DNA of 39,429 bases, taken from Anaeroplasmataceae bacterium (GTDB taxonomy: Bacteria; Bacillota_I; Bacilli_A; Acholeplasmatales; Anaeroplasmataceae). The stretch is taken from contig JAIDZC010000035.1 in assembly GCA_029057785.1 (NCBI GenBank), positions 1-39,429 on the forward strand, written 5' to 3'. Position numbers and translations under genes: made by a program. Positions 22,818 through 28,119 of this stretch are shown here, piece after piece. Below the pieces are notes generated by a model that ran no database searches, was not told the DNA's origin, and saw nothing but the letters and a program-made list of their open reading frames with translations. How positions within the stretch are numbered: the stretch's first letter is position 1; each line of letters opens with the position of its first letter.

Positions 22818-23261
22818 TTATTTTTCAATAACATTAATTTCAAATGTAGCAATAATATCCTTATCTAAACGAACATTAGCAGTGAAGATACCTACAGAAT
22901 TAATTTCAGCAGGCAATTCCACCTTCTTCTTATCAAGGTGAATTCCTGTTTGAGATTCAAACTCTTCACAAATGTACTTTGTTGTAATGTGACCAAAGTT
23001 CTTACCTTCAGCACCCACCTTAATATATACAGATATAAATTTATCTTGAATCTCAGTTTTTAATTTTTCCAATACATTTCTTCTATTTTCACTATCAATA
23101 CGTGCTTGCTCTTGTTCAGCAGCAAGTTTCTTTAAGTTCTCTTCAGATGCAACAATAGCAAGCTTATTTGTAATAAGGAAGTTTCCATAACCATTTGCCA
23201 CATCAAGGATATCATCCTTTTTCCCTTTGCCTTTAACATCTGCAACCAAAATAACCTTCAT
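22818..23261 (-). CDS. rplI: Ribosomal protein bL9, in-frame internal translation product
   Basis: The 3' part of the gdpP-rplI frame read from its internal ATG gives 147 aa, the normal length of bL9 (E. coli 149). The N-domain ([30 protein letters not shown], shown by [15 protein letters not shown] and [10 protein letters not shown]), the long connecting helix (about 40-75) and the C-domain with [11 protein letters not shown] are complete. bL9 binds domain V of 23S rRNA near the L1 stalk. Whether free bL9 is made from this start, or only the fusion, is inference from the internal SD. Confidence 0.7.
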
Positions 23262-25256
23262 TTTACCATCTCCTAAATCAACATAATCTCTTTTTAAAAT
23301 TTCAATCAAACGTGTTCTTACTTCTTCAATTGTAACACCCTTAATTTGAGTAGCGGCAGCATTGAAGTGTCCTCCGCCCTCCATCTCTTCCATTATGATT
23401 TGGACATTGATATCATTACTTCTTGCTGAAACACCAACATAGTTCTTATCAATACGACCAATCGTAAAGGCTGCTTCAATTCCTTCAATAGTTAACAGCT
23501 TATCTGAAATCTTAGCCAAGGTTGTACGATCTGGAATATATCTATCCTCTGGCTCTGCCACAATCGCAAACCTTTTTTCATAAATAAATGCATCAACCAT
23601 AGCTTCTGCTAAAATACGTTCCACATCATAAGAATCTCTTAATAATCTACGTACCAAAACCATATCTGCTCCCATTGTGTTCAATGTAGATGCCGCTTCA
23701 AAGGTTCTTGTTCTTGTACGATATGTAAAGTTATTTGTATCTACAACAATACCCGCAAGCATTATAGAGGCAACTAATGGATCAAGTTCAAAAGAATTAT
23801 TATAGAATAGGAACATTTCTGAAACTAGTTCAACTGTTGATGAAGCAGAAGTTTCTACATAATAGGACACGGTTTGTGTATAACCTGCATCACTTGCACG
23901 GTGATGGTCTATAACAGATACATTATTACATTGTGCTAATATATCAGGAAACATCGCAAGTCTTGGAGATTGTGTATCTGTCATAATTAACAAGGTATCA
24001 GGACGAATGAGTTCTTTAGCCTGTGCTTTAGTAACAAAGGCACTATAAATGGATTTATCTGTATGATTCTTTATTTTATCGAATACCTTTTGGACTGTTG
24101 CATCTGCAAGTTTAGGCTCAAATACCATTTTACAATCCTTAGTAGAGGTACTTGCTAAATACCATACAGCAAGCATAGATCCAATTGCATCGCAGTCAGC
24201 CAAATCATGACACATAATCAAAACATTACTACTAGACTCAATAGCTTCTCTTAGAGCCATAGTTTGAATACGAGCTTCAACTAATGTATTCTTCTCTAAG
24301 GAGTTTGTATTACCACCAAAATATTGAATCTTTTGATTTTGGATATTTACTACAACTTGATCTCCACCACGCTTTTCTGCAAGTTCGATTGCATTTTGAG
24401 CTAAGGTGACTAGCTCTGCAGCTTCAACATCAAAACAAGCAACACCCATGGACATACTTGCTTTCAAGTGATTCTTATTAGAAATCTCACGTACTTGATT
24501 TAAAACAGAAAACTTATCTGCAATCATTTTGTCTAATGCTTCATGATCTAATACAACAAACATTTGATTACTAGTCAAGGTTTCTAAACAGCACCCATGG
24601 CTATGTACCCAATCAGAAATTACACCTAAGATTTGTCCACGAATACTTGTTTGCTCCTGCATATCATAACGCTTTAAAGAGCCTTCTAGGTTATCTATAT
24701 CAATTAAAGCAAATGCTGTAATTCTATCATTATACTTTTGGATGGTCTCTTCTCGATATGTAACGTCAAAGAAATATAAAATGCGGTTTTCAACATTATG
24801 AATAACATCAAACTGTGAATCATATGCTGTAATTAAAAGTTTTTCTTTGCCTTCTTTTAACTCTTCAATAAAACCACTTGTAATTGAATCTAATGAATTG
24901 TTAATTAGGTTATCTTTGAATACCTGTCTTGCATAATCATTTGCCCATTTCACTTCCATGCTTGCATCATAAACAATGATACCAATAGGCAATTTAGTAA
25001 AAGCTTCATCACCTGCAGCAGAAACATGGTGAGATATCGAGTTCCAAACATTCAATCTGTTTTCTAACCATGTTATTTTCTCTACATTCTTTCTATTCAA
25101 AACTAACATACCCAATACTACTGTACAAATAATAAAGGCTACCGTAAAGGATAAATACACAAAGAATAGTGTAGTGCTTTTATAATTATAATATGTAAGG
25201 TATGCAAATACGATTGTTATACCTAAAGAAATAAGTGCAGCTATAAATTTTTTCAA
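22818..25256 (-). CDS. gdpP-rplI: GdpP-type c-di-AMP phosphodiesterase fused to ribosomal protein bL9
   Basis: About 812 aa. Residues 1-60 hold two membrane helices; a PAS-like region (about 75-150) and a degenerate GGDEF domain (about 165-290) follow. The DHH phosphoesterase shows [12 protein letters not shown] (HxxxDxD), [14 protein letters not shown] and a downstream Asp in VVDTNN; DHHA1 ends in [11 protein letters not shown]. GdpP hydrolyses c-di-AMP to pApA. From about residue 666 the frame continues without a stop into a complete bL9 ([13 protein letters not shown]... to EINVIEK, about 147 aa, both L9 domains). The usual separate rplI is therefore fused in frame. A good internal SD/ATG remains (see 23259-23274). 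TTG 25256 is chosen because AGAGGGTG lies six bases upstream; GTG 25265 abuts the SD. Confidence 0.93.
23259..23274 (-). promoter_or_regulatory. Internal Shine-Dalgarno and ATG of rplI inside the gdpP-rplI frame
   Basis: On the minus strand AGGAG (23270-23274) is followed after eight bases by ATG (23259-23261), which begins the bL9 sequence. The codons GAT TTA GGA GAT GGT AAA ATG stay in the GdpP frame. Confidence 0.8.
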
Positions 25257-25283
25257 ATTCGTCACCCTCTTTTCTATTTTAAC

Positions 25284-25312
25284 ATTATATCAAATTAATC
25301 ACAAATAATCAA
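25284..25312 (-). promoter_or_regulatory. Promoter of the gdpP-rplI-dnaB-prfA(-mfd) operon
   Basis: Minus strand TTGATT (25307-25312), 17-base spacer with TG extension, TATAAT (25284-25289). The further gap up to 25487 holds no gene that I can see; it contains an imperfect TTGACA...TGTCAA dyad (about 25433-25453). Confidence 0.7.
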
Positions 25313-25487
25313 TTAACTTGTGTGTTTCCTTTTGAAAAATCCTAACATTAAAAGAGATAATCTTTTCAATTCCTTCTTACACCTGTGATGAAACGGTAGT
25401 TCAATTTCCAATTCATCTTATATAAACCATATTTGACACAAAAATTTTGTCAATTAAAATCCTCAGATTTTACTAATGCAAAAACAA

Positions 25488-25517
25488 AGGACTTACAGTT
25501 TTATGCCTGTAAGTCCT
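25488..25517 (-). terminator. Terminator of the ABC-transporter operon
   Basis: Perfect 11-bp stem AGGACTTACAG/CTGTAAGTCCT with an 8-base loop, overlapping the last base of the ATPase gene, followed by TTGTTTTTG. Confidence 0.85.
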
Positions 25518-26185
25518 TATTCTAAAATATATTTAAGAATATCTGTTCTGATATTTTGTTGTTCAGAAAGAGTTCTAGGTAAACTACTATTAATTTGATA
25601 TGTTTTAGATATATTGCCCTCTCTTAAAATGAATATATCATCTGCTAGAAGTATTGCCTCATCTATATCATGTGTTACAAATAATACTGTTTTCTTATCC
25701 ATATTCCATAGATTGCTAAAATATGAAATCAGCTTGTATTTCAAAGATAAATCTAGTGATGAAAAGGGTTCATCCATCAAAATAATTGGAGCGTCAAACA
25801 AGAAAGCTCTTGCGATAGAGACTCTTTGAGCCTCTCCACCGCTAAGTTTTGTTGGATAGGCATCCTTTTTATCAAGAATTTCTAATTTAGAAAGAATTTC
25901 TTCTATTCTTTCATCTGTAGCCTCTTGTGAAACAAATTTCAAATTTTCTTTCACTGTTAAAGAAGGAATCAATCGAGCCTCTTGAAAAATATAAGAAAGC
26001 TTCCCATTTCCTTCAATAGAACCACTATAATTTGTTAGTCCTGCAATCATATTCAGTAGTGTTGTTTTTCCTACTCCACTTTCTCCCAAAATACAAGTAA
26101 TCTTATTTTCAGCAAATTCTAAAGAAAAGTGATCAAAAATAACACGTTCATCATATTTTTTACATATGTCTGTTAGTTTAATCAT
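25517..26185 (-). CDS. ABC transporter ATP-binding protein (NitT/TauT/SsuB-type)
   Basis: A 222-aa import ATPase. Walker A GESGVGKTTLL, signature LSGGEAQRVSIARAF, Walker B IILMDEPFSSLD, and switch His in VTHDIDEA. The short length and the absence of a C-terminal regulatory domain match SsuB/TauB/ThiZ proteins. Its start overlaps the permease gene by eight bases. It energises uptake by the neighbouring permease and lipoprotein. Confidence 0.92.
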   Translation of the reverse strand: MIKLTDICKKYDERVIFDHFSLEFAENKITCILGESGVGKTTLLNMIAGLTNYSGSIEGNGKLSYIFQEARLIPSLTVKENLKFVSQEATDERIEEILSKLEILDKKDAYPTKLSGGEAQRVSIARAFLFDAPIILMDEPFSSLDLSLKYKLISYFSNLWNMDKKTVLFVTHDIDEAILLADDIFILREGNISKTYQINSSLPRTLSEQQNIRTDILKYILE

Positions 26186-26924
26186 GGCACATCACCTTCT
26201 TTAACAAATGTAGGATAGCTTCACTGATCATACTTAATACAATCGCAACTATCGTCAAAGCAAATAGTTTCTCAACTTCTATGTTCACCTTTGCAAATTG
26301 CATAAGCTTACCAATACTATTTCTTGTTTGTGCTAATGCCTCAGCAGCAATAACCAACTTAATATTCAAACTAAAAGCTGTGGCTGTATTTTCTAAAATC
26401 ACTGGCTTCATACTTGGAATATAAAGCTTTAAGATTTGATTTTTTTTAGACACATGATAAACATTTGCCATTTCTATTAGTTTTTTATCTATTTGATGAA
26501 ATCCAGATAAAAAGGCTTGATAGAGCGTAGGACAGATTACAATGCCTGCAATCACTATTGGAGTTTGACTAGGACTAATCATGATAATTAAGATTAACAA
26601 TATTGCCATAGTAGGAACAGCTCTTACAATAGCCATAAAAGGGTTTAAAAATTTTTCTATTTCCTTGTAAGCATAGGCCAAAACAGAACAAAATAAAGCT
26701 ATAATAAAAGCTATTAAAAAGCCCTCAATACATCTTAAATAAGTCCATCCTAAGGATATCCAAAAGTTAGAATCTTTAATGAGCTCTCCTAAATTCAAAA
26801 ATGACTGTGCGGGAGTAGGTAAAATTAAATCTACCCCTATCCACCAACAGGCAACATACCAGATGAGTAAAATCAAAAGAATGACTGCTAGTGGATATAT
26901 TAAATTAACTAGCAGTTTCTTCAT
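26178..26924 (-). CDS. ABC transporter permease (NitT/TauT/SsuC-type)
   Basis: 248 aa with about six membrane helices and the importer EAA-type loop EMANVYHVSKKNQILKLYIP near residues 150-170. The N-terminal LPTPAQSFLNLGEL matches the family's P-S/A-P block. SD GGAGG precedes the ATG, overlapping the end of the binding-protein gene. Substrate undetermined: family members carry nitrate, sulfonates, taurine, pyrimidine thiamine precursors or riboflavin. Confidence 0.9.
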   Translation of the reverse strand: MKKLLVNLIYPLAVILLILLIWYVACWWIGVDLILPTPAQSFLNLGELIKDSNFWISLGWTYLRCIEGFLIAFIIALFCSVLAYAYKEIEKFLNPFMAIVRAVPTMAILLILIIMISPSQTPIVIAGIVICPTLYQAFLSGFHQIDKKLIEMANVYHVSKKNQILKLYIPSMKPVILENTATAFSLNIKLVIAAEALAQTRNSIGKLMQFAKVNIEVEKLFALTIVAIVLSMISEAILHLLKKVMCHD

Positions 26925-26937
26925 TGCTTACCTCCAA

Positions 26938-28119
26938 TTAATTCAAAAAGAAATTATCGTCTAAATCTAGTTTGGCAAGTTCTTTTACATACTCTTTTAC
27001 AGAAGTTTTAACTAAACTTGCAAGTTCTACTCTTACATTACATCTTTTTATAGTGTCTGCAGTAAAAGTCATATTGCCCAGATTACTTTCATATTTTTTA
27101 AACACCTCTGGCAATGTTTCTAAATGGCTATTTAAATAACTTGCATTACCTTCAAGTTTTTGTAATAATGCTTTAACATAATCAGGGTATGCTTTAGCAA
27201 ATTCTTCTTTTACTACTAAACATGCCTGTGGATATCCATCATAAGTTGTAAGTTTCTTATATTCTGCTTGTAAATCAACTGTAATCTTCATTTCTGGAAT
27301 TAAGGATTGTGCACGCGTAACCTGTGGTTCACCTAACACTCCATAGATTTCTGTTCCTTTTAATACTGCTTGTTTAATTTGAGGAATAATTTCAGATGCA
27401 TCATTTACTGTAGATAATGCTACTTTTCCTGAAATTGCTTCTCCTGATTCCTCATAAGGAATGTTATTTCCATCTAACACATACTTTACCATTTGAATAG
27501 TAGTTGCAGCAGTCGTTAAAATTAGTTTCCCCTTTAAATCTTCCAAAGAAGAAATTTCATGAGTTCCTGTTATATATAGATTACCAAAAACATTTACGCT
27601 TGCCAATTGAATTTTAATTCCTTGCTTTACATATAACTGTGCTGCAGCAGTTGTTGGCATAATAGCTAAATCGCAAGCATCTTGTGCTACTCTAGCAGCT
27701 ATCTCTGCTGCTTGAACAATATGGAAATTTGTCTTTGTTTTTTCATAAACAAAATTTTCATCTAATACATTGGCTAATGCTAATGCTGGTGTTCCGTCTG
27801 GCATATAAATATTTACTTCACTAGGATATTTATGCTCCCATGCTGCATATAAAGTAGTATCTTTAGATATAGTTTCTCCGGCAACGGCTGGTATTTCTAA
27901 ATCCTTGTCTTTATACCATTTTATAAAAACCCATCCATTATCATCTTCCAATATAGGTAACGGATCTGGTAACTTTTCACCCCGAATTTTCTCTGGAGCT
28001 TTCCCATGTCCATTAACTTCATATGTTATATTAAATCCTTCTGTTGGTTCTGTTGTCTCTTTACAAGAAACCAAGCTGAAGCTTAATAATAATACAAAAA
28101 AGAATATTATTTTTTTCAT
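26938..28119 (-). CDS. ABC transporter substrate-binding lipoprotein with an N-terminal InlB B-repeat
   Basis: A 393-aa lipoprotein: lipobox LVSC (Cys about 19), one B-repeat (about 28-94; GWVFIKWYKDKD, then LYAAWEHK), and an NMT1/SsuA-type binding protein (about 97-393; MPDGTPALALANVL, DLAIMPTTAAAQLYV, SSLEDLKGKLILTT). The binding fold is complete in length. Known family members import nitrate, sulfonate or thiamine precursors; the present substrate cannot be read. No riboswitch-like structure (for example a TPP element) is visible in the short leader. GAGGTG precedes the ATG. The B-repeat between anchor and binding domain is unusual. Confidence 0.88.
   Translation of the reverse strand: MKKIIFFFVLLLSFSLVSCKETTEPTEGFNITYEVNGHGKAPEKIRGEKLPDPLPILEDDNGWVFIKWYKDKDLEIPAVAGETISKDTTLYAAWEHKYPSEVNIYMPDGTPALALANVLDENFVYEKTKTNFHIVQAAEIAARVAQDACDLAIMPTTAAAQLYVKQGIKIQLASVNVFGNLYITGTHEISSLEDLKGKLILTTAATTIQMVKYVLDGNNIPYEESGEAISGKVALSTVNDASEIIPQIKQAVLKGTEIYGVLGEPQVTRAQSLIPEMKITVDLQAEYKKLTTYDGYPQACLVVKEEFAKAYPDYVKALLQKLEGNASYLNSHLETLPEVFKKYESNLGNMTFTADTIKRCNVRVELASLVKTSVKEYVKELAKLDLDDNFFLN

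Follow-up and report, generated by a model that had tools for sequence, protein, structure and literature searches.

In-frame internal starts give N-terminally truncated isoforms, as in IF2 alpha/beta (infB) and CheA-L/S, and in Thermus rpmH and rnpA overlap in different frames, yielding unrelated peptides. In the gdpP (yybT)-rplI-dnaB neighbourhood of Firmicutes, a stop codon separates the genes. A fused form is annotated as NCBIfam NF011110 / PRK14538 ('putative bifunctional signaling protein/50S ribosomal protein L9'), the description of which, as shown, presents a bifunctional fusion protein and leaves a nested start for free bL9 unmentioned. The window analysed here, a stretch of 39,429 nucleotides (contig JAIDZC010000035.1) from an Anaeroplasmataceae bacterium, has the Firmicutes gene order, with dnaB and prfA following, but its rplI lies wholly within the gdpP frame. 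The fused protein of the window has the domain order and length of NF011110 and scores 766.7 bits with that model (cut-off 707; residues 33-815), so the fusion itself is a known architecture. As in infB and CheA, one open reading frame carries two same-frame starts for two functional products, which are predicted here, and as in Thermus rpmH/rnpA, a ribosomal-protein gene is nested with another gene.

The fused gene is an 815-codon frame (22818-25265, minus strand, GTG start, TAA stop), unbroken from the GdpP domains through Ribosomal_L9_N and Ribosomal_L9_C. Its GdpP part has the complete domain order of PAS, degenerate GGDEF, DHH and DHHA1, comprising PAS_GdpP (Pfam PF21370, residues 82-168, 24762-25022), GGDEF_GdpP (PF24898, residues 188-312, 24330-24704), a DHH phosphoesterase domain with the DHH motif present (PF01368, residues 347-506, 23748-24227), and DHHA1 with the GGGH motif present (PF02272, residues 579-657, 23295-23531), all on the minus strand. 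By these domains the protein is a GdpP-type c-di-AMP phosphodiesterase with predicted hydrolytic activity, and since the source genome has one diadenylate cyclase gene, the GdpP substrate is expected. The bL9 model begins exactly at the Met that is residue 669 of the fused protein (TIGR00158 positions 1-147, 96.5 bits against a cut-off of 58.6; Pfam PF01281 and PF03948 also matched), and the nested rplI frame, 147 codons plus stop, is in frame with GdpP (22818-23261, minus strand) and retains the GY[AG] motif. The sequence-only reading had named a separate rplI elsewhere as a finding that would count against it; no second L9 was found in the source genome, which is 97.7% complete, and the nested frame is its sole L9. 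A promoter-like site, TTGATT-17-TATAAT with TG before the -10, lies just upstream of the fused gene (25284-25312, minus strand; consensus match only). The ABC-transporter genes upstream (25517-28119) are set apart from the fused gene by a terminator-like 12-bp hairpin (25487-25518, minus strand) in the gap following the ABC-transporter ATPase gene, and the downstream genes (dnaB, prfA, mfd) were named from ORF translations. For a possible separate internal rplI promoter, only chance-level promoter-like matches were found inside the gene (11 versus 15.2 expected).

At the junction the minus strand reads 5'-GATTTAGGAGATGGTAAAATGAAGGTTATT-3', giving the in-frame peptide Asp-Leu-Gly-Asp-Gly-Lys-Met-Lys across the internal Shine-Dalgarno (SD) sequence and ATG. 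The AGGAG that the sequence-only reading had placed 8 nt before the bL9 ATG, in the GdpP frame, was confirmed at 23270-23274 on the minus strand, within the Leu-Gly-Asp codons, followed by the 8-nt spacer ATGGTAAA (23262-23269) and the ATG that forms bL9 codon 1 (23261-23259; TIGR00158 position 1). We propose that one mRNA is translated from two in-frame starts. Ribosomes starting at the upstream GTG codon (25265) would make a membrane c-di-AMP phosphodiesterase of the GdpP type that ends in a bL9 domain, and those initiating at the nested SD-ATG (23274-23259) would make a free, ribosome-competent bL9 of 147 aa. The nested start would thus provide ribosomal bL9, which is needed in much greater quantity than the signalling enzyme, without a separate gene. 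Taken alone, the SD of the window (-8.0 kcal/mol) is suggestive only: although just 0.46% of the 3,709 in-frame Met codons used as controls reach -8, random synonymous codons for the same peptide (mean -6.6) do so in 20% of draws (p 0.20). The significance of the internal SD comes from comparison across the family, not from the single site in the window.

For this comparison, 216 fused junctions were sampled, and the 5 genomes with a second, free rplI were set apart, leaving 211 single-copy cases. Anti-SD pairing energy was computed over positions -20 to -4, and the remaining in-frame Met codons of these genes (n=3,709) served as controls; the canonical anti-SD TGGATCACCTCCTT is present at the 16S 3' end in four relatives (loci confirmed as 16S by Rfam). 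Pairing at the bL9 start averaged -9.0 kcal/mol (n=211) against -1.5 at the controls, with 82% of bL9 starts at or below -7 against 0.8% of control Met codons, and the bL9 start exceeded its own control in SD strength in 66/66 genera, consistent with a conserved function of the site in all 66. The SD occupies all three codon phases among the fused genes (141/52/13) and lies within differing peptides (EGG, KEE, QEE, LGD), and thus a shared peptide cannot explain it. The sequence-only reading had raised the question of whether the SD is conserved beyond its surrounding codons; in 61 of the 66 genera it is stronger than synonymous recoding predicts (genus-level paired Wilcoxon test, p 6e-11). Gene by gene, the same test gave p<0.05 in only 16% of genes, being weak at this level because purine-rich peptides favour SD-like codons. 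The SDs of genus g18 are weaker (mean -5.4; L065-L070, L139-L160), and in G125, G128 and G129 nearly absent (about -0.2), with start codon and fusion retained across the genus; initiation in g18 may depend on features besides the SD. SD-like sequence alone was rejected as a diagnostic, since the GGGH motif, some 100 nt ahead of the bL9 start, matches equally well and is peptide-driven. This DHHA1 motif (about 23360-23380 in the window; profile mean -9.6 kcal/mol) offers a useful negative control for intragenic SD scans.

The codon at the start position is constrained as well. In all single-copy fused genes bL9 codon 1 is ATG, GTG or TTG (in G111, the ATG is three codons earlier), and where it encodes Val, GTG was found in 21/21 cases, compared with 11% GTG among the Val codons of these genes; the 21 cases are not all independent, since they are confined to five genera. 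In G111 (L156) the start has apparently moved three codons upstream, reading AGAAGGAG...ATG AAA AAG AAA. In 50 of 66 genera, local folding corrected for composition was weaker at the bL9 start than it was at the control Met codons (p 2e-6). On these sequence comparisons, selection acts on the internal start independently of the encoded peptide. Free bL9 might instead be cut out of the fusion by a protease acting between the domains, with SD and ATG as leftovers, and the junction after DHHA1 is indeed a short variable linker, as a cleavage site could be. However, it is the linker peptide that varies (EGG, KEE, QEE, LGD, GGD), whereas SD pairing and spacing are conserved, as is the presence of a start-type codon, and proteolysis leaves unexplained both the exclusive use of GTG for Val and the loss of the SD only beside a free rplI, making this explanation highly improbable.

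That loss was seen in the five genomes set apart above, in which the fused gene is directly followed, within one contig, by a free rplI that has an SD of its own: G007 (L091) and G018 (L083) of family f1, and G408 (L222), G414 (L223) and G420 (L221) of family f9, forming two separate lineages on the tree. In their fused copies the SD is lost in 5/5 (0 to -1.2 kcal/mol), the bL9 start codon is lost in three (ACT, AAG, AAG), and the GY[AG] motif of the bL9 N-domain is lost in all five; the free copies have SDs of -4.7 to -10.3 kcal/mol, and the motif is kept in 5/5 of them and in 209/211 single fused copies. The association of SD loss with a free rplI gave a Fisher p of 1e-7, computed without correction for relatedness and representing two independent lineages only. 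Fused domain and free copy are 36-43% identical in these genomes. Decay of SD, start codon and GY[AG] beside a free rplI is as expected if the nested start elsewhere supplies ribosomal bL9, and species with a second rplI thus form a ready control, being the only ones in which the nested start and the ribosomal motif decay. An SD acting in elongation, as a domain-boundary pause for folding, would also place SD-like sequence between two domains; such a pause would need neither a start codon at 5-13 nt beyond the SD nor a preference for GTG among the Val codons, and the SD is lost beside free rplI though the domain boundary remains, so that a pausing role has an almost negligible probability.

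It is also conceivable that no free bL9 is made, and that the fusion itself enters ribosomes, some of them membrane-tethered, or that the ribosome can dispense with bL9, which is inessential in E. coli; the relative G238, 97% complete, is without an L9 match. Mutants dependent on bL9 have been studied (PMC4399890). Retention of a strong, position-specific initiation signal in 66 genera, and of the GY[AG] motif in fused bL9 only where a free copy is absent, argue against this explanation, which we regard as extremely unlikely. The comparison gives strong evidence for production of free bL9 from the nested start; this bL9 would then enter ribosomes, and two in-frame starts on one mRNA very probably yield both the GdpP-bL9 fusion and free bL9. 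The dual output suggested by the sequence-only reading from the kept SD and ATG is thereby strongly supported, with SD and start decaying only beside a free rplI copy.

The fusion protein may be needed too. No stop was regained before bL9 at any of the 216 junctions, though at a typical junction 7-8 of the 12 codons ahead of it could become a stop by a single substitution. Between G007 and G018, dN/dS was 0.115 for fused bL9, 0.135 for free bL9 and 0.151 for GdpP, and the fused bL9 domain is under purifying selection even beside a free bL9. Since no stop was regained and the fused domain is under purifying selection, the fusion protein would be made and used, and probably has a role of its own. 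Alternatively, only free bL9 matters and the fusion is a harmless read-through by-product of a lost stop; consistent with this, fused bL9 evolves faster than free bL9 in the tandem genomes of f9 g89 (dN/dS 0.32 against 0.16, G414-G420). A by-product is nevertheless unlikely, given that stops so easily reached were not regained and that in G007-G018 the fused domain is constrained as strongly as free bL9 and GdpP. A study of an atypical GdpP in Mycoplasma bovis reported rplI and dnaB among down-regulated genes (PMC10720645), a lead only.

The nearest named relatives of the source are Anaeroplasmataceae MAGs at 97% identity, and the fusion spans three orders and about 275 genomes. In the source's own order L9 was found in 153/160 genomes, nearly all in frames of about 800-870 codons, the shorter L9-containing frames that were inspected lying at contig ends; L9 is fused likewise in a second order (f9/f19, 39/43 genomes) and a third (f16/f23/f24, 83/90 genomes). 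Genus g18, presumed to be phytoplasmas on the strength of its genome sizes (0.3-0.9 Mb), also carries the fusion. Within the same class, gdpP and rplI are split, with a stop before rplI, in the f7 order, f12, f15 and f20, as they are in Listeria and Priestia records, and in a plasmid search the gdpP/rplI pairs among the matches listed (top annotated) were all split. Since the fusion is common to three orders, it is old, and a recent stop-loss fusion was rejected: the relatives' junctions that were read in the source's own order and two others are all fused, the split relatives seen belonging to other orders. The sequence-only reading had ascribed the arrangement to stop loss, which remains a possible origin, as in G161 (f7) a TAA lies two codons ahead of the ATG in the same frame, and fused and split states can thus be a very small step apart; it does not hold as a local event, the arrangement being common to at least three orders and an annotated family. 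On the GdpP tree split lineages fall between fused ones, and grouping the split rows together was unrejected (AU p 0.31), so that one origin with later splits and several fusions both remain compatible with the sequences. G238 (f9, genus g89) has only a trace GdpP-bL9 match (E 8.8e-7) besides its missing L9, and may have lost the entire fused gene; g89 is also the genus in which other genomes acquired a free rplI.

On this evidence a gene that databases describe as a bifunctional fusion most likely makes two proteins, and annotation pipelines would accordingly overlook the start of free bL9 in such genomes. The family forms a clade-wide, naturally replicated case in which the only gene for a core ribosomal protein is an in-frame internal start within a signalling enzyme. 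The arrangement makes testable why GdpP and bL9 remain joined, and likewise a tie between c-di-AMP turnover and the ribosome in very reduced genomes, presumed phytoplasmas included. As a tentative wider interpretation, one gene could yield, throughout three orders of Bacilli (wall-less and related forms), both bL9 and a membrane c-di-AMP phosphodiesterase-bL9 in which the fused domain is selected for a role of its own, for instance in coupling c-di-AMP breakdown to ribosomes or bL9 supply, tying a second-messenger enzyme to ribosome production; uncoupling would follow only after gain of a second rplI, the fused domain then losing its ribosomal signature and staying selected. This is possible, though doubtful as a whole.

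In the open-access PMC literature, no account of the fusion's products or dual output and no proteomic report relevant to a free bL9 product were found, and the main text of an A. laidlawii core-proteome paper (PMC3139596) does not address dual output. The fusion itself is already known; conservation of the nested start, and the loss of that start upon gain of a second rplI, seem undescribed in the literature searched (open-access PMC). Compared with Thermus rpmH/rnpA, the frame in the window is shared and the long product contains bL9. Compared with infB and CheA, the predicted short product is a complete ribosomal protein, the sole copy in its genome, with no known functional tie to the enzyme that precedes it.
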